32,172 nt of DNA from a virus. The stretch spans positions 1 through 32,172 of IMG/VR virus record IMGVR_UViG_3300042868_003826; one strand, 5' to 3'. A program made the translations under genes and the position numbers. The stretch's first letter is position 1, and each line of letters begins with the position of its first letter. Shown here in pieces: positions 16,141 through 24,397 of the stretch. The notes under the pieces are model-generated. The model searched no databases, was not told the origin of the DNA, and saw only the letters and a list, made by a program, of their open reading frames with translations.

Positions 16141-16440
16141 TTAGAATCCTAATACACTACGTAATGTGGTTATTTTGGGTAGATAAATCTGCACACCTGC
16201 TTTGAAATCCAATGGGGGTGCAGCGAGTGTGTTAGGGTTGCGTTGATAGAACACCCACCAAAGTCCAGGGTTGTCATACAAATCCAAGGCCAACAGATCA
16301 GGTCTATACTGATATGTTTGGTTGATTTGCATGAGTCGATCATCGCTTTCTTTGGGAATGGCACGGTTGGCCATTACGTCCAAGAAAAATTGACTATACC
16401 CTGTGGTATAGTATGCACTAGTTGAGTCGTATGTGGCCAT
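16141..16440 (-). CDS. gp53: Baseplate wedge subunit gp53-like
   Basis: A 99-aa protein with the gp53-type pattern: a short N-terminal strand region, then DRLMQINQTYQYRPDLLALD (residues about 35-54), LYDNPGLWWVFYQRNPN (about 56-72) and a C-terminal strand segment that in many relatives resembles a LysM fold (FKAGVQIYLPK). The RPDLLA and LWWVF blocks are the most diagnostic. T4 gp53 is longer (196 aa); short versions are usual in distant T4 relatives. gp53 is a wedge component that stabilises the baseplate rim. Its ATG overlaps the preceding stop (TAATG), and a GGAGG ribosome site lies inside the end of the upstream gene. Confidence 0.8.
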   Translation of the reverse strand: MATYDSTSAYYTTGYSQFFLDVMANRAIPKESDDRLMQINQTYQYRPDLLALDLYDNPGLWWVFYQRNPNTLAAPPLDFKAGVQIYLPKITTLRSVLGF

Positions 16441-17960
16441 TACCAGAATCCTCCTTTGATCAGGTCACCATTGGCAAAGCTCTTGAGACTGAACACTTGA
16501 CTGACCTGCGCCCGAGTTTGCATGGGCAATAGAGTTATTGTACAATCAATCTTGGTAGGCACATAAGTTGGTGAATTTTTGCCCAGAGTCGGCGGTGCCA
16601 ATGGGCTTGAGATAGCACCTTTGTTGATACCTTGACTGGAGAATAAGTTTTCTAATCGTTTGATAGCACCAGTTATGGGATTGGTTGGCAAGTCTTGTCG
16701 TATTCGTCGAGTAGTCAAGTTGGTACCATTAATGTTGGTACTGCCTGCACGAATGTAATCTACGTCGTTGGGCAAGTTGTATTGAAAACTACTTACCACA
16801 CAAGGATGTGCTGCGAACTGATATTCACCAAGTCCAGTTAGATATACCAGTGGTGGTGGAGCACCACGTTGCGCATCTTGACCATAGAACATTTTTGTCA
16901 CTGATCTAAAAAAGTGTATCACTGCCAACATATAATTGGCTTCGGCTGTGTCCTGTGCTGTGAATGTTGCAGTAAGATTCACAGCATCTGTATAGCTGCT
17001 TTTGTAAAAGTACCCTTTGTAATTTGAGTGTGTGAGTGAATATGAATCATAATCAGCTTTGTATGACACATCAATTTTAGGCATGTAGGGAAATATCACC
17101 CCTCCAGTTTGAGCCAATGGTTGTAATATACCAGGGCTGGATGCATTGTACAAATAGTCAGCACCAGCAGCAAGACTAAGGCGCACACGCCAGTCACCGT
17201 TATTGACCAATTTGCGTTGAGCTTCTAATACTGCTTGTCGCTGTGCCAATTGTGTGCCAACCACAGCTTGTGAATTTTTATCAATAAGCCTGTTTGTTTC
17301 AGCTGCTGATTGGTTAGGCGTGGCGTCTAGCTCTAATCTGGCTAGGCGAGCTGTTTCAGCATCACTTTGTTCTACGTTCTCTGCTGCGTTAGCAGCTACT
17401 CTAGCATCTACACCTGTGGCATCATCAACAAACGGAAATGGTTGTGCTGCTGCTGCATTAGCCTCCACCTGGGCATCTACACCTGTGGCATCATCAACAA
17501 ACGGAAATGGTTGTGCTGCTGCTGCGTTAGCCTCCACTTGGGCATCTACACCTGTGGCATCATCAACAAACGGAAATGGTTGTGCTGCTGCTGCGTTAGC
17601 CTCCACTTGGGCATCTACACCTGTGGCATCATCAACTAGCAGCGCAGCTGGCCCTAGTATAGGAGGCGGAGGTGTGCCTACAATTATACGTGGATCAACA
17701 ACTGGTACTGCCGTGGCTGATTGCAAAGGAGATTGTGAATCTAATGCAATACTAGGTTGTACATAAGATACTTGTGTCAGGCCCGACGGAGCAACATCCC
17801 CGCCGGCGCCAGGTATTATTGCACCTGCATTAGAATTTGTGCCTGATCCGTACGAAGCAGCATCAGCACTAACACTCGACTGAGCAGCAGCGTCAGCCAC
17901 TGATAGACCTTGTTGTATCAATTGATTGAATGTTGTTGCGTTACTTTTGATGTATGCCAT
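16440..17960 (-). CDS. Putative tail-tube/baseplate cap protein with 23-aa tandem repeats
   Basis: 506 aa, first gene of the minus-strand tail operon. Residues about 1-230 are Ala/Asp/Val/Pro-rich and include three 23-residue repeats plus a partial fourth (VDDATGVDAQVEANAAAAQP...). From about residue 245 a folded domain follows (DWRVRLSLAAGADYLYN; PYMPKIDVSYKADYDSYSLT; FYKSSYTDAVNLTATFTAQD; ANYMLAVIHFFRSVTKMFYG; then APPPLVYLTGLGEYQFAAHP). It ends with a family-like C-terminus (FSLKSFANGDLIKGGFW). This arrangement resembles proteins annotated in T4-like aquatic phages as tail-tube cap or initiator (gp48/gp54 position), but I cannot assign a specific T4 gene. The gene is preceded by a GGGTAAATAAA element and a hairpin at 17976-18009. 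Confidence 0.85.
   Translation of the reverse strand: MAYIKSNATTFNQLIQQGLSVADAAAQSSVSADAASYGSGTNSNAGAIIPGAGGDVAPSGLTQVSYVQPSIALDSQSPLQSATAVPVVDPRIIVGTPPPPILGPAALLVDDATGVDAQVEANAAAAQPFPFVDDATGVDAQVEANAAAAQPFPFVDDATGVDAQVEANAAAAQPFPFVDDATGVDARVAANAAENVEQSDAETARLARLELDATPNQSAAETNRLIDKNSQAVVGTQLAQRQAVLEAQRKLVNNGDWRVRLSLAAGADYLYNASSPGILQPLAQTGGVIFPYMPKIDVSYKADYDSYSLTHSNYKGYFYKSSYTDAVNLTATFTAQDTAEANYMLAVIHFFRSVTKMFYGQDAQRGAPPPLVYLTGLGEYQFAAHPCVVSSFQYNLPNDVDYIRAGSTNINGTNLTTRRIRQDLPTNPITGAIKRLENLFSSQGINKGAISSPLAPPTLGKNSPTYVPTKIDCTITLLPMQTRAQVSQVFSLKSFANGDLIKGGFW
17404..17637 (-). repeat. 69-bp tandem repeat within the 506-aa gene
   Basis: The sequence gcatctacacctgtggcatc starts at 17404, 17473, 17542 and 17611, exactly 69 bp apart. 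Three full copies and a partial fourth encode 23-residue units. The copies are nearly identical at DNA level (a few silent differences), so the array is young and its copy number is likely to vary between related phages. Confidence 0.93.
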
Positions 17961-18070: not shown

Positions 18071-18970
18071 ATGGCAACCATTACAAGAGCAACACCAAAA
18101 ACCAACTATTTAAATAATCGCGATATTCTCAAGGAAATTCACCTTAGCAAAAAGAATTACTGTGCTTTTAGAGATCCTGCGCTGGATCATCAATACGATA
18201 TCATCCTGCCAAGTGTAAGCAAGATCAATCAAAAAAGCACAGCCGAAGCACGTAGAAACCGAGCAGATCGTATCAAACGTGAAACTGGTGAGATCATTGA
18301 TCCTAAAAAAATCCCCAACACAGACATTGTTTTTCGCATTATGACCTGGGAACACATACCCATGGCACCCAAAAAGATCACCAAAGCAGCAGCTAAAAAA
18401 CGCAAGTTAGAAGAGCTGTTGGAACTGGATGATCCTGTAGAGGAAGATCCACTAGCAGGACTTGTTGACGAACCTATGCTAGATCCTACACACATGCGGG
18501 TAAACTTCCCTCCGTTCTTTCATTATCGTGTGGATGAGAGCAAAGTTCCATTCTTGGTGGGCAAAAGTCACTGGAGGGGAGATCTTGAAACTGGAGAGTT
18601 TAGTAAAGATCACGGCGAGATGACTCGCACTCTGGCCAAGATGTTTATGAAACTGTGCGAAAGATATGCCACAAGGAGTAATTGGCGTGGATACACCTAC
18701 AACGAAGAAATGCGGGGGCAAGCCCTGTTGCAACTCAGTCAGATCGGATTGCAATTCGACGAATCAAAATCGCAGAACCCTTTTGCGTATTATACTGCCG
18801 CTATCACTAATAGCTTTACTCGTATCCTAAACATTGAAAAGAAGATGCAGAACATACGTGATGACATTTTAGAAATGAACGGACTAAATCCTTCTTGGAC
18901 TCGACAGAACGCTGGCAAACACAGCATGGAGGCCATGTCCGGACCGGTTGTAAGCTCGCTTGAAGAATAG
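18071..18970 (+). CDS. gp55: Late-transcription sigma factor gp55-like
   Basis: 299 aa against 185 aa in T4. gp55 replaces host sigma-70 on RNA polymerase to recognise TATAAATA late promoters. The match to T4 is at residues about 11-22 (TNYLNNRDILKEI; T4 has NYVNNKELLQAI) and about 198-262 (RYATRSNWRGYTYNEEMRGQ; LQFDESKSQNPFAYYTAAIT; NSFTRILNIEKK), equivalent to the region 2-like core of T4 gp55 (FSGYT...EMI, FDETKYKNPHAYIT). Between them lie about 170 residues, including a basic stretch (100-112) and an acidic stretch (114-135); this longer form is typical of distant T4 relatives. The hydrophobic C-terminal sliding-clamp-binding tail of T4 gp55 (SLDFLYE) is not evident; this protein ends SGPVVSSLEE. 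Confidence 0.85.
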   Translation: MATITRATPKTNYLNNRDILKEIHLSKKNYCAFRDPALDHQYDIILPSVSKINQKSTAEARRNRADRIKRETGEIIDPKKIPNTDIVFRIMTWEHIPMAPKKITKAAAKKRKLEELLELDDPVEEDPLAGLVDEPMLDPTHMRVNFPPFFHYRVDESKVPFLVGKSHWRGDLETGEFSKDHGEMTRTLAKMFMKLCERYATRSNWRGYTYNEEMRGQALLQLSQIGLQFDESKSQNPFAYYTAAITNSFTRILNIEKKMQNIRDDILEMNGLNPSWTRQNAGKHSMEAMSGPVVSSLEE

Positions 18971-18982
18971 TATAATCAAAGG

Positions 18983-19999
18983 ATGAGTAATCTATTTAAA
19001 AAAGCTGCGATCTTCACTGACATTCACTTTGGGCTCAAGAGCAACAGTACAGTTCACAATGAAGATTGTTTGAATTTTGTAAAATGGGCCACGGCCAAAG
19101 CAAAGGAGCAAGGTTGCGAAACAGCCATGTTTCTAGGCGATTGGCATAACAATCGAGCCAGTCTCAACATTGTCACACTGAATTACAGTCTGCGAGCACT
19201 AGAGCATTTGAATGATAACTTTTCTAGTGTTTATTTCATTCCTGGTAACCACGATTTATACTATCGCGATAAACGTGATATTCAAAGTGTTGAATGGGCT
19301 AAACATCTACCCAACGTTGAAATCTGTAATGATTGGGTCACAGTCGGTGACGTGGTCATTGCTCCTTGGCTTGTGGGTAATGATTATAAACGTATCCCAA
19401 AGCTAAAAGGCAAATACATGTTTGGACACTTTGAACTGCCCGGCTATCTCATGAACGCCATGGTAGAGATGCCCGATCATGGTGAGGTACGCAGAGAAGA
19501 CTTCAACAATTTCGAACATGTGTTTACTGGGCACTTTCACAAACGTCAAACCAAAAAGAATATCACTTACATTGGCAATGCGTTTCCGCACAACTACGCC
19601 GATGCTGGTGACGACGATCGCGGTCTTACCATCATAGAGTGGGGTAAAGATCCTGTGTATCATGCCTGGCCAGATCAACCACGATATCGTGTGTTAGGAT
19701 TAGCCAACATCATAGACAATGCAGCCACATTGCTTGCACCTCGCATGCATGTTCGTGTAAACTTAGACATTGAGATTTCATACGAAGAAGCTAACTTTAT
19801 CAAAGAAACATACATCCGTGATTTCAACCTGCGAGAGATGGCGCTGATTCCCAACAAGACCAGCTCTGTGGATGTGGATATGGCGCCGGGCGAAATCAAA
19901 TTTGAATCAGTGGATCAGATTGTAACTGATCAAATTACCAACATCGAATCAGAGTTTTACGACAACAAGTTACTGCTGAAAATCTACCAAAATTTATGA
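18983..19999 (+). CDS. gp47: Recombination endonuclease subunit gp47 (Mre11/SbcD-like)
   Basis: 338 aa, the same size as T4 gp47 (339 aa). All phosphoesterase motifs are visible in order: FTDIHFG (Asp13, His15), FLGDWHNNR, PGNHDLYY, the GHFELPG motif and FTGHFHKRQ. These residues coordinate two Mn ions for the exo/endonuclease activity. With gp46 it forms the SbcCD/Mre11-Rad50 type complex that resects DNA ends for recombination-dependent replication and helps degrade host DNA. The start follows gp55 by 12 nt with an AAAGGA ribosome site, and its stop overlaps the gp46 ATG by 4 nt (ATGA), giving coupled synthesis of the two subunits. Confidence 0.95.
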   Translation: MSNLFKKAAIFTDIHFGLKSNSTVHNEDCLNFVKWATAKAKEQGCETAMFLGDWHNNRASLNIVTLNYSLRALEHLNDNFSSVYFIPGNHDLYYRDKRDIQSVEWAKHLPNVEICNDWVTVGDVVIAPWLVGNDYKRIPKLKGKYMFGHFELPGYLMNAMVEMPDHGEVRREDFNNFEHVFTGHFHKRQTKKNITYIGNAFPHNYADAGDDDRGLTIIEWGKDPVYHAWPDQPRYRVLGLANIIDNAATLLAPRMHVRVNLDIEISYEEANFIKETYIRDFNLREMALIPNKTSSVDVDMAPGEIKFESVDQIVTDQITNIESEFYDNKLLLKIYQNL

Positions 20000-21756
20000 T
20001 CCACTTACGTGACCTTACAGTAAAAAACTTCATGAGTGTGGGGAACACCACACAAGCAATCAATTTTGATCGATCAGATCTAACTTTAGTGCTGGGCGAA
20101 AACTTAGACATGGGTGGTGACGGCTCACGTAATGGCACAGGTAAGACCACAATTATCAATGCCTTGAGCTATGCGCTGTATGGGCAAGCACTTTCAAACA
20201 TTCGCAAGGATAACCTAGTAAACAAAACCAACGCCAAACACATGTTGGTCAGCTTGGATTTTTCAGTAAGTGGACAAAATTATCGAATTGAGCGTGGGCG
20301 CAAACCCAATGTGCTTAAATTCTATGTGAATCAAGAAGACAAAAGTTCTGATGACGCTCAAGGTGATTCGAGAGAAACACAAGAAGCAATTGAACGTGTG
20401 CTAGGTATGAGTCACGATATGTTTCAACATATTGTTGCACTAAACACGTATACACCGCCGTTCCTGAGTCTCAAGGCCAATGAACAACGCACTATCATTG
20501 AACAATTGCTGGGTATCACACTGCTGAGTGAACGTGCTGATCGTATCAAAGAACTAAACAAAGCAACTAAAGATTCTATTCAATCTGAAGAACTGAGAAT
20601 TCGAGCAGTTCAAGAAGCAAACAAACGTATCGAAGAACAAATACAAAGTTTAGAAAAACGTCGCACACTATGGATACGCAAGCAAGCCGAAGATGTGGCT
20701 GCACTTGCTCAAGGCATTAGTGATCTTGAGCATATCAACATTGATGCTGAAGTGCAATCACATAGAGATCTTGAAGCGTATCATGTGCGTAAGAAATCTG
20801 CAGATGATGCAAATCGATGGATCAAGCAAATCAATGCAGACGATACAAAGTTACAAAAGCAAGTTGATCAAATTCGAAAAGATCTCGGACAAATTGCTTC
20901 TCACAAATGTTTTGCATGTGGTACTGAGATTCACGACACTAGCCTTGACAATGTAAAAGCACAGCGTGAAAAGAATCTGCAAGAACTAGCATTGCAGTTG
21001 CTGACCAATGATACACAACGACTGGAACATCAAGATCGATTGATATCTCTTGGTACCATTGGTTCTGCGCCGGTGGTATTTTATGACAATTTAGAGCAAG
21101 CACTCAATCACAAAAACACTGTGGATACCTTGCGCAAGGATCTTGCAGCAAGGTCTGCGGATACTGATCCATATGCAGAACAAATTGCTGATATGCAGCA
21201 TCAAGCATTGCAGCTGGTAAGTTACGATACATTAAACGAATTCACTAGAGTGCAAGAGCATCAGGAGTTTTTGTTAAAACTGCTAACCAGCAAAGACTCA
21301 TTTGTTCGTAAAAAAATCATCGATCAAAATCTAAGTTATCTCAACTCAAGGCTCACACACTATCTTGACCGTATTGGATTACCTCATACTGTGAAGTTTC
21401 AAAACGATCTTACTGTGAGTATTGAAGAGCTGGGTCGCGAGTTGGACTTTGATAATCTATCACGTGGCGAACGCAATCGACTGATCCTGAGCATGAGCTG
21501 GGCTTTTCGAGATGTGTGGGAAAGCCTGTATTGTCCTATCAATATCTTGTTTATCGATGAGATGATCGACTCGGGTCTAGATACACAAGGCGTAGAAAAT
21601 GCGCTGGCATTGCTGAAGAAGATGAGTCGTGAACGCCATAAGTCAATTTGGTTGGTAAGTCACAGAGATGAACTGACCAGCCGAGTAGAAAACATACTCA
21701 AGGTTGTAAAGGAAAATGGATTCACAAACTACAACACCGAGGTTGAACTTGTATGA
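19996..21756 (+). CDS. gp46: Recombination endonuclease subunit gp46 (Rad50/SbcC-like)
   Basis: 586 aa against 560 in T4. This is the SMC-like ATPase partner of gp47. Walker A is at residues 41-52 (GDGSRNGTGKTT, Lys50). Long coiled-coil arms run from about 175 to 300 and from about 310 to 430. The zinc hook CxxC is at Cys305/Cys308 (HKCFACGTE). The ABC signature is at 488-493 (LSRGER), Walker B at 517-522 (ILFIDE, Asp521) with a D-loop SGLD, and the switch His is at 556 (WLVSHRDE). All elements needed for ATP-driven clamping on DNA are present. The stop overlaps the next gene as ATGA. Confidence 0.95.
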   Translation: MIHLRDLTVKNFMSVGNTTQAINFDRSDLTLVLGENLDMGGDGSRNGTGKTTIINALSYALYGQALSNIRKDNLVNKTNAKHMLVSLDFSVSGQNYRIERGRKPNVLKFYVNQEDKSSDDAQGDSRETQEAIERVLGMSHDMFQHIVALNTYTPPFLSLKANEQRTIIEQLLGITLLSERADRIKELNKATKDSIQSEELRIRAVQEANKRIEEQIQSLEKRRTLWIRKQAEDVAALAQGISDLEHINIDAEVQSHRDLEAYHVRKKSADDANRWIKQINADDTKLQKQVDQIRKDLGQIASHKCFACGTEIHDTSLDNVKAQREKNLQELALQLLTNDTQRLEHQDRLISLGTIGSAPVVFYDNLEQALNHKNTVDTLRKDLAARSADTDPYAEQIADMQHQALQLVSYDTLNEFTRVQEHQEFLLKLLTSKDSFVRKKIIDQNLSYLNSRLTHYLDRIGLPHTVKFQNDLTVSIEELGRELDFDNLSRGERNRLILSMSWAFRDVWESLYCPINILFIDEMIDSGLDTQGVENALALLKKMSRERHKSIWLVSHRDELTSRVENILKVVKENGFTNYNTEVELV

Positions 21757-22766
21757 CTCTGGCAACCTGGCATTTTCATATTGAAATATCCAGCAAGTGT
21801 ACCTTGCGGTGCCCTAGGTGTGCTCGTCAAGAAGTTCCTGATGGTCTAGTCAACACAGAACTAGATCTAGAATTCTTCAAACGTAATTTTACGCCCGAGT
21901 TTGTGTTGGCAAACGTAGAGAAAATCACATTCTGCGGCGATGACGGTGACCCTATATACGCCCACGATCTAATACCTGTGATACAATATATCAAGAGTAT
22001 TAAGCCTGTAGAGATTGTGATTGTAACCAACGGTAGTCATAAAAAAGTATCCTGGTGGAATGAACTAGGATCATGTTTAGGCCCGTGTGACAGTGTACAC
22101 TTCAGCATCGACGGCTATGACAACGCCAGCAACAATCTTTATCGTGTGAACAGTAATTATGACAGTATAGTTGCAGGACTAACAGCACTTAGAGCCGCAA
22201 GCCAATGTCAAATAGTCTGGGCTGCAATTGCATTCAAGTTCAACGAGGATCACATTGACCGTATGCAGCAGTCTGCCCAGCAGCTGGGTGTGGATCAATT
22301 TCAGTTGACCAAGAGCACAAAGTTTGGCAGCGTGATTCCATCTTACGGCGTCATGGATCCGCTGGAACCCAGCAAGAAATACGTCAGCACTTCACATCGC
22401 TTTGAGCGTGAAACCACAGCATTTACAGATTCTGGAAAGTGGGAGCCAATTCCACTCATAAACAACACTTTGTTTAATCAAACCAAAAGTCGCAACGGCG
22501 TTACACCCTTGTGCGAGATAGGCAACAAGGGATTGTACATTGATGCTCGTGGCAGGCTATTCCCCTGCTGCTGGGTGGCCAATAGATACAATCACAATTC
22601 AGACTGGCAGCAAATAGCAAACAACTTTAATTTACATATCAGACCACTTGCAGATTCAATTGCAGATCCTTTTTGGACAGCTGAGTTCCAGTCATTTGAG
22701 TGGCAAGAATGCCAGACCAAATGCAAGAGCTCAGTAGTTGATAAAAAATATGCCACAACCTGGTGA
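21753..22766 (+). CDS. Radical SAM protein with SPASM-type C-terminal cysteines
   Basis: 337 aa. The N-terminus carries the radical SAM cluster motif Cx3Cx2C (Cys16, Cys20, Cys23 in SSKCTLRCPRCARQ). It is followed by features of the partial TIM barrel, including FCGDDGDP at the SAM-binding glycine-rich position, VEIVIVTNGS and a VHFSIDGYD strand. The C-terminal part has Cys254, Cys272, Cys273, Cys320 and Cys324 (LCEIGN, LFPCCWVANR, CQTKC), the arrangement of a SPASM or twitch domain that binds auxiliary iron-sulfur clusters. Such enzymes often modify peptides or proteins, sometimes other substrates. The target here is unknown and no obvious precursor peptide gene is adjacent. ATGA overlap with gp46 implies co-expression in the recombination operon. 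It is too long for QueE and shows no methyltransferase features. Confidence 0.85.
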   Translation: MTLATWHFHIEISSKCTLRCPRCARQEVPDGLVNTELDLEFFKRNFTPEFVLANVEKITFCGDDGDPIYAHDLIPVIQYIKSIKPVEIVIVTNGSHKKVSWWNELGSCLGPCDSVHFSIDGYDNASNNLYRVNSNYDSIVAGLTALRAASQCQIVWAAIAFKFNEDHIDRMQQSAQQLGVDQFQLTKSTKFGSVIPSYGVMDPLEPSKKYVSTSHRFERETTAFTDSGKWEPIPLINNTLFNQTKSRNGVTPLCEIGNKGLYIDARGRLFPCCWVANRYNHNSDWQQIANNFNLHIRPLADSIADPFWTAEFQSFEWQECQTKCKSSVVDKKYATTW

Positions 22767-22808
22767 AAGAGATAACTAAACTGCAAAGGTAATACAACAA
22801 ATTCTCGC

Positions 22809-23237
22809 ATGACATGGCATTATCAAAACACTCCAGTTGAGACACTGCCCGAAGAATGCATAGGATTTGTTTACCTGATCACCAATAATCTTTCTGGTCG
22901 CAAGTACATAGGCAAAAAACTAGCTAAATTTTCAAAAACCACATACAAAACAGTCAAGCAAAAAAACGGCATCAAGAAAAAAAAGAAAATTAGAACCAAA
23001 ATTGACAGTGATTGGCGCGAGTACTACGGTTCAAGCGAAAATCTTACTGTTGACGTAAACACCCTAGGCACCAAAAACTTCACCAGAGAAATACTTTACT
23101 ATTGCACTTCAAAAGCACAATGCAGTTACATTGAAGCTAGAGAACAGTTCGATCGCAAGGTATTAGAATCCACAGATTATTACAATGGCCATATCTCAGT
23201 CAGAGTACATGGCTCACACATCATAAACAAAATTTAA
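22809..23237 (+). CDS. GIY-YIG nuclease-family protein
   Basis: 142 aa. The GIY-YIG motif appears as GFVY (residues 19-22) and KYIGKK (32-37), at typical spacing. A very basic stretch (KQKNGIKKKKKIRTK, about 50-64) follows, then DWREYYGSS (68-76), and an acidic residue in the SYIEAREQF helix (106-114) could be the metal-binding glutamate. This compact form is recognised as one found in T4-like aquatic phages, where it stands free rather than inside an intron. It may be a homing-type or repair/recombination nuclease; which one is not decidable here. It lies 42 nt downstream of the radical SAM gene and is the last plus-strand gene before the convergent region. Confidence 0.8.
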   Translation: MTWHYQNTPVETLPEECIGFVYLITNNLSGRKYIGKKLAKFSKTTYKTVKQKNGIKKKKKIRTKIDSDWREYYGSSENLTVDVNTLGTKNFTREILYYCTSKAQCSYIEAREQFDRKVLESTDYYNGHISVRVHGSHIINKI

Positions 23238-23638: not shown

Positions 23639-24397
23639 CTAAACAGATGACTCACGTAATGCTTTATATTTTGCAATACGTGCTTCTGAAATTGCTTTCT
23701 TGTGCGCTTCTGATTTTGGTTTACGCATTTTTTGTTTAGTTTCTTCTGACTTAGGAATACCTTTATCTCTACCTGCCAATGACTTAGATAACTTCTCTTT
23801 ATGTGCGTCTGATTTTGCACCAGTAGATTTACCTTTTAGTGCTCGAGATAGTTTAAAAGCTATAGCCTCTTTTTCTGCTGGTGTTTTTTCCTTACGATTA
23901 AGCTGTGCTTTCTGCATTCGTTCTTTTTGTGCAGGTGTGCGTTTTTTACCTGTACACGATGTACGCCTCTTCTCGATGGTTTCTTGAGAACTTACTCTGC
24001 CACGCCCGGCTGCTGAAATCTTTGCTTTGTGATCCTCGGTGAGTTTACGTCCAGTTAATCTTTTTGAATGCATCTGACCAAATTGTTTTTTGATCATTTC
24101 ATAAAGTCTTGAATTTGGTATAAAACGCTCTTGATAATCTCTTGATACTTGTGACATCATGTTAGCAGCATATAACATTTTATGTCTGTGTACACCTGTA
24201 GTGAATTTGGTCAATAACACATGACAAATAAAATGTTCTCTAGCAGTAAGTGTGACTATATTTTCTATTAGGTCACTACCACTTAGACTACGTGGTAGGA
24301 TGTGATGATTTTCTGAATATGTGGATGTTAATGATCTTGATTGTGCTTTTTTAATAATAGCATCATACCATTTTTTGTACTTGTTTTGAATAAACAT
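23639..24397 (-). CDS. Free-standing HNH homing-type endonuclease with NUMOD3 repeats
   Basis: 252 aa. The HNH core is at the N-terminus: NHHILPRSLSG (residues 30-40, His31/His32), NIVTLTAREHFICHVLL (46-62) with a His in the expected metal-binding helix. From about residue 112 to the end there are several NUMOD3-type DNA-binding segments: GRKLTEDHKAKISAAGRG, GKKRTPAQKERMQKAQ, SDAHKEKLSKSLAGRDKG and a final copy around SEAHKKAISEARIAKYKA. This architecture is typical of mobile endonucleases in phages. The gene sits after gp51 on the same strand, has its own perfect late-promoter consensus and a CAGGAG ribosome site, and interrupts no recognisable gene. It is highly basic. Confidence 0.9.
   Translation of the reverse strand: MFIQNKYKKWYDAIIKKAQSRSLTSTYSENHHILPRSLSGSDLIENIVTLTAREHFICHVLLTKFTTGVHRHKMLYAANMMSQVSRDYQERFIPNSRLYEMIKKQFGQMHSKRLTGRKLTEDHKAKISAAGRGRVSSQETIEKRRTSCTGKKRTPAQKERMQKAQLNRKEKTPAEKEAIAFKLSRALKGKSTGAKSDAHKEKLSKSLAGRDKGIPKSEETKQKMRKPKSEAHKKAISEARIAKYKALRESSV

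Follow-up and report, generated by a model that had tools for sequence, protein, structure and literature searches.

A conserved twitch-type radical SAM enzyme in a variable cargo slot beside gp46 of aquatic jumbo phages

We describe rSAM-A, a 337-aa radical SAM enzyme of the twitch type encoded at positions 21753–22766 (plus strand) of the window, the 32,172-nt stretch of viral DNA (IMG/VR record IMGVR_UViG_3300042868_003826) analyzed here. Its modeled fold contains a radical SAM barrel, the SAM-cluster motif and the twitch cysteines are conserved, and the gene is under purifying selection as judged by dN/dS. The interval in which it resides, between gp46 and a SegE-like gene, is a variable cargo slot in a large clade of aquatic jumbo phages. 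Tentatively, and with somewhat less than even confidence, we read rSAM-A as exchangeable auxiliary cargo, a two-cluster enzyme that would oxidize a sugar-like small molecule and have a role in connection with glycans.

The rSAM-A gene and its neighbors

The rSAM-A ORF begins with ATG. The Radical_SAM Pfam profile matches it with E = 1.8e-6 and 28.7 bits, slightly below the 29.5 cut-off for this single sequence, and PHROG 21308 (‘radical SAM’) matches at 3.8e-21. Relatives were found as 303 matching stretches across viral contigs, the best 80 of which are 72–100% identical; among cultured phages, 4 annotated records match, all at about 25%. The dN/dS of about 0.04–0.12 indicates purifying selection and, together with the 303 viral matches and the invariant cysteines, argues that rSAM-A is not a chance ORF. 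In one locus (L152) a frameshift or a sequencing error divides the gene into separate ORFs of 146 and 194 aa.

Gene order in the window is gp55-gp47-gp46-rSAM-A-endonuclease, all on the plus strand. The first three genes encode a gp55-like late sigma factor (18071–18970; PHROG 12791, 5e-77), a gp47-like (Mre11/SbcD) subunit (18983–19999; PHROG 100, 3.8e-59) and a gp46-like (Rad50/SbcC) subunit (19996–21756; PHROG 77, 4e-96). Downstream of rSAM-A lies the gene for a 142-aa SegE-like, homing-endonuclease-like protein (22809–23237; PHROG 447, PHROG 7363), which is GIY-YIG by reading of its sequence and a homing endonuclease by PHROG 7363; a SegE-like gene also follows rSAM-A in the loci of the first search. 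ORF calls were simple, and the start sites of some neighboring genes are approximate.

These results agree with an original prediction, made from the sequence alone, of a radical SAM gene at 21753–22766: the ORF, its relatives and the profile matches (Pfam and PHROG 21308) all point to the same gene. Its two observations on the junctions also hold. The stop of gp46, at 21756, and the start of rSAM-A share a 4-bp ATGA overlap (21753–21756, plus strand), and no precursor peptide gene lies between rSAM-A and its neighbors, the downstream spacer (22767–22808, plus strand, with GATAACTA at 22771) being 42 bp long. The identical 4-bp overlap is found at gp47/gp46 and at one further gene pair in the window, and is thus an ordinary feature of this genome. 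In automatic calls, 63 of 145 rSAM-A genes overlap gp46 by 4 bp; in many loci a second radical SAM gene, rSAM-B, which encodes about 285 aa, intervenes between gp46 and rSAM-A, and there rSAM-A keeps an overlap with rSAM-B.

Elsewhere in the window, a 506-aa protein (16440–17960) carries several copies of the repeat VDDATGVDAQVEANAAAAQPFPF, and a homing-endonuclease-like gene on the minus strand (23639–24397) looks recently inserted, being present in just one of the 81 loci from the first search. Within the clade, gp46 occurs in 587-aa and 693-aa forms (e.g., L023, L053, L202, L219), with ~106 aa extra.

Cysteine ligands and number of clusters

rSAM-A has the Cx3Cx2C motif of the radical SAM superfamily, for the SAM-binding [4Fe-4S] cluster (C16, C20, C23; 21798–21821, plus strand), and this motif is invariant in 60 diverse members. 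Across 81 sequences, C16, C20, C23, C254, C272, C273, C320 and C324 are all invariant, as are C61 and C152 in close relatives, and in the 60-sequence alignment C16, C20, C23, C272, C320 and C324 remain so down to 22% identity. C273 is replaced by serine in L093, a relative at 46% identity, and is therefore an unlikely ligand.

By sequence and model, C254-x12-G267-x4-C272 (22512–22568, plus strand), the first half of a SPASM/twitch motif, surrounds a predicted beta-hairpin (strands 261–263 and 268–270). The last two candidate ligands of an auxiliary cluster are C320-x3-C324 (22710–22724, plus strand), invariant in the 60 diverse members. The seven-cysteine SPASM motif reads CX9-15GX4C-gap-CX2CX5CX3C-gap-C (PMC6231123); rSAM-A has its first part, lacks the CX2CX5CX3C block and the last cysteine, and scores 15.1 bits against the SPASM profile PF13186 (cut-off 21.5). 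With C254 and C272 flanking the hairpin strands and C320 and C324 placed after helices, the layout is that of a twitch region, in agreement with SkfB and BtrN (PMC6231123). Because C-x12-G-x4-C ... C-x3-C supplies four ligands, the C-terminus fits a twitch region with four predicted ligands for one auxiliary cluster, and the SPASM assignment (two auxiliary clusters) was dropped on cysteine count.

The original prediction had called rSAM-A a SPASM enzyme with auxiliary sites, naming Cys16/20/23 and a second set at 254, 272, 273, 320 and 324. Every one of these positions is correct, and the radical SAM assignment stands, as does that of an auxiliary cluster site. What falls is the SPASM label, as the layout fits one auxiliary cluster, not two.

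Predicted structure and candidate substrates

An AlphaFold model built on the 60-sequence alignment (pLDDT 92.9, pTM 0.92) consists of a radical SAM barrel, beginning at residue 7, and a C-terminal twitch region. Absence of a barrel had been named at the outset as a finding that would weaken the idea of a conserved functional unit; the confident model has one, a partial TIM barrel with many radical SAM structures matching at Z above 15. The top VIA-align matches are SuiB, DesII, BlsE, SkfB, anSME and MoaA, with Z of 18.5 for SuiB, 18.1 for DesII (sugar), 17.7 for BlsE (sugar nucleotide) and 17.6 for SkfB (twitch); viperins reach 16 and BtrN 15.1 over 229 of 246 residues. Foldseek ranks viperins bound to CTP or UTP first, and the best PDB sequence-profile match is SkfB (E = 2e-8). 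The fold does not single out a substrate, since the nearest structures span peptide enzymes (SuiB, SkfB, anSME) and viperins; in the subfamily of SkfB, function is described as hard to predict from sequence (PMC6231123).

SkfB, the sactisynthase of B. subtilis (PDB 6efn), shares the twitch architecture with rSAM-A, and the C254-x17-C272 spacing equals that of SkfB Cys333-x17-Cys351, with the residues aligned (numbering of PMC6231123). At about 16% identity, rSAM-A differs in having no N-terminal peptide-binding domain and in its last ligand pair, which is C-x3-C rather than the C-x-C of SkfB. BtrN (2-deoxy-scyllo-inosamine dehydrogenase, PDB 4m7t) has one auxiliary cluster in its twitch region, as predicted for rSAM-A; the alignment spans nearly all of BtrN at 14% identity, a likeness of fold only.

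That rSAM-A modifies a peptide or protein, either as a RiPP-type maturase or by acting on some protein of the host or virion, strikes us as unlikely but deserving of weight. SPASM/twitch enzymes often have such substrates, a sactisynthase is the best profile match, SuiB and anSME are among the top fold matches, and NCBIfam peptide-maturase models match weakly. However, no curated NCBIfam maturase model comes near its cut-off, the 42 bp to the next gene hold no precursor, and the start of the barrel at residue 7 accords with the lack of the N-terminal peptide-binding (RRE) domain that SkfB, SuiB and CteB each possess (PMC6231123).

We consider it improbable that the substrate is a nucleotide, DNA or RNA, whether the product be a viperin-like antimetabolite, a hypermodified base or a modified tRNA. 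The Foldseek ranking points in this direction, as do carbamoyltransferases, which occur in the same phages and can act on modified bases as well. Yet the viperin model (NF038283) gives 24.8 bits where 180 are required, MoaA (TIGR02666) gives 32.4 where 284.05 are required, several SPASM/twitch enzymes outrank viperins in VIA-align, and to our knowledge viperins do not have the four twitch cysteines. A base hydroxymethylase of the thymidylate-synthase type (PF00303) is absent from seven phage contigs of the clade, which weakens DNA hypermodification by that route.

A variable cargo slot between gp46 and the SegE-like gene

Searches anchored on rSAM-A, over 47–100% identity, place gp46 upstream in almost every contig that extends far enough, and this adjacency counts against reading the gene as cargo. 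The impression that rSAM-A is always next to gp46 is partly an artifact of such queries, and some relatives sit elsewhere: the phage-like contig L231, which was binned as Pacearchaeota, encodes a 47% relative with no gp46 neighbor, and L234 has a 65% fragment adjoining N-twitch and B12-type radical SAM genes. In Bdellovibrio-like bacteria, cellular members of the broader family adjoin other radical SAM genes, and one (L233) adjoins a dehydrogenase-like gene (both by reading).

Loci picked by gp46, not by rSAM-A, provided 72 complete gp46-to-nuclease intervals, counted as contigs without dereplication and tallied by tblastn, which overlooked a dehydrogenase-like gene in four loci. rSAM-A is present in 22 of these intervals and 18 contain nothing; the cargo of the remaining 32 consists for the most part of radical SAM families other than rSAM-A; some radical SAM gene occurs in 47 of the 72. 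Empty slots retain 37–78 bp in the junctions read, with one of 202 bp. Further cargo includes B12-type radical SAM, dehydrogenase-like, amidinotransferase-like and SGNH-like genes (labels partly by sequence reading), and at some further loci the SegE-like endonuclease is replaced by a PDDEXK_15/RusA-like protein. Distances for gp46 and rSAM-A are only moderately correlated (Spearman 0.41), and loci whose gp46 is 90% identical to that of the window nevertheless carry different cargo (L155–L157, L228). This variation among gp46-anchored intervals and the moderate correlation identify a cargo slot with gp46 as its left border and the SegE-like gene as its right. The gp47-gp46 and gp55-gp47 intervals are variable too, with cargo that includes TctC receptor, AMP-binding enzyme and sulfotransferase-like genes. 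PA5oct, Phosso and Atu_ph07, the cultured phages with the nearest gp46, have no radical SAM gene after it.

The spacer at 22767–22808, from GATAACTA onward, resembles spacers at empty and differently filled slots of other phages, as if the endonuclease gene kept its own leader. In more distant phages (L102, L101, L022, L030), slots near gp46 contain transporter genes, a TctC receptor by Pfam and an ABC-type set by reading.

A functional unit of rSAM-A with the gp47/gp46 nuclease, in which it would modify, for example, the nuclease or its DNA substrate, is very unlikely: the overlap with gp46 in 63 of 145 genes and the presence of another nuclease gene next in line (SegE-like or PDDEXK_15/RusA-like) speak for it, but 50 of the 72 gp46 loci have no rSAM-A in the interval (18 being empty), the cultured relatives lack it, the overlap persists with rSAM-B upstream, and relatives occur away from gp46. 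The neighborhood comparison suggested with the original prediction recovers gp46 upstream in rSAM-A-anchored loci, whereas the proposed functional tie to gp47/gp46 finds no support in the gp46-anchored sample, where 22 of 72 intervals contain the gene.

Gene partners and radical SAM content of the clade

Within the slot, radical SAM genes of another kind (rSAM-C) always adjoin, or are fused to, a short-chain-dehydrogenase-like gene, and a 366-aa subtype of rSAM-A follows such a gene in 6 of 6 loci (L093, L168–L170, L222, L225). Both pairings hint at a small-molecule substrate. Small proteins of 128–198 aa, beta-rich by eye, adjoin B12-type/N-twitch radical SAM genes in L036, L064, L093, L219 and L227, a pairing that recurs; where tested, they have no Pfam or PHROG match.

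Long contigs of the clade (130–350 kb; L023, L030, L055, L092, L225, L226, L227) encode 9–21 Radical_SAM genes each (PF04055), compared with 0 in PA5oct, 4 in Phosso and 4 in Atu_ph07. Many belong to N_Twi_rSAM (NF033640), a common radical SAM family of these genomes; its twitch region is N-terminal, in contrast to the C-terminal one of rSAM-A, and NF033640 does not match rSAM-A at E up to 1. A cluster common to these genomes combines radical SAM genes with a carbamoyltransferase (1.5e-48) and an amidinotransferase-like protein, the latter matching L-arginine:glycine and inosamine-phosphate amidinotransferases, with StrB1 (1bwd) at 8e-12. Another region encodes two DegT/StrS aminotransferases (5e-97, 5e-58) and an NDP-sugar epimerase (1e-44). 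Such a set typically serves the chemistry of amino sugars or aminocyclitols; what ties these clusters to rSAM-A is that they co-occur in the genomes.

Phages rich in radical SAM genes have been reported before. Campylobacter phages CP220 and CPt10, described in 2010, have 11–12 each, with amidinotransferases in interchangeable modules (PMC2853527), and the CP220 array contains the annotated phage protein most similar to rSAM-A (25%); they differ in belonging to another phage group and in carrying their arrays outside the gp46-SegE slot. The T4-like marine virus TARA_ERS488813_N000010 has 12 radical SAM genes (PMC5332604), and pelagimyophages have gained radical SAM cassettes in the host recognition cluster, adjoining LPS genes (PMC7029224). 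The rSAM-A subfamily and the gp46-SegE slot, of which we found no description in the open-licence literature, appear to be undescribed.

Proposed role of rSAM-A

The variable slot, the relatives away from gp46 and the radical-SAM-rich sugar-gene clusters argue for auxiliary metabolism as the role of rSAM-A. Its C16/C20/C23 cluster would cleave SAM, the resulting 5'-deoxyadenosyl radical would abstract hydrogen from a C-H bond of the substrate, and the electron would pass to the single auxiliary cluster, for a net oxidation as in BtrN. Judging from neighboring genes, the substrate may be a small molecule, with a sugar, amino-sugar or cyclitol as the likeliest candidates. It could serve a surface or virion glycan, which the phage would gain from altering in infection. 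The sugar-like substrate and the glycan role are speculative, and are the least certain steps. The overlap with gp46 would couple rSAM-A translationally to an operon that is expressed rather than link it to recombination. Against a sugar, the 337-aa form has only gp46 and the endonuclease gene beside it in the window, and the sugar clusters, located in other parts of the genome, mainly involve the different family NF033640.

A broader scheme, which we consider doubtful, is that the clade carries a distributed, partly exchangeable radical-SAM pathway for making or tailoring, in infection, an unusual product that resembles a sugar or aminocyclitol; rSAM-A would be one of its tailoring enzymes, exchanged between phages via the gp46-SegE slot. 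The parts of the pathway would be the many radical SAM enzymes and the homologues of a sugar aminotransferase, an epimerase, a carbamoyltransferase and an inosamine-type amidinotransferase.

Phages rich in radical SAM genes have been noted since 2010. The idea that rSAM-A serves recombination is corrected here, and gene partners to express and assay are identified, namely the short-chain dehydrogenase with rSAM-C or with the longer rSAM-A subtype, and the small protein beside a B12-type radical SAM enzyme. The analysis also defines a member of the two-cluster type that is both compact and highly conserved, along with a slot through which phages exchange enzymes of this kind.
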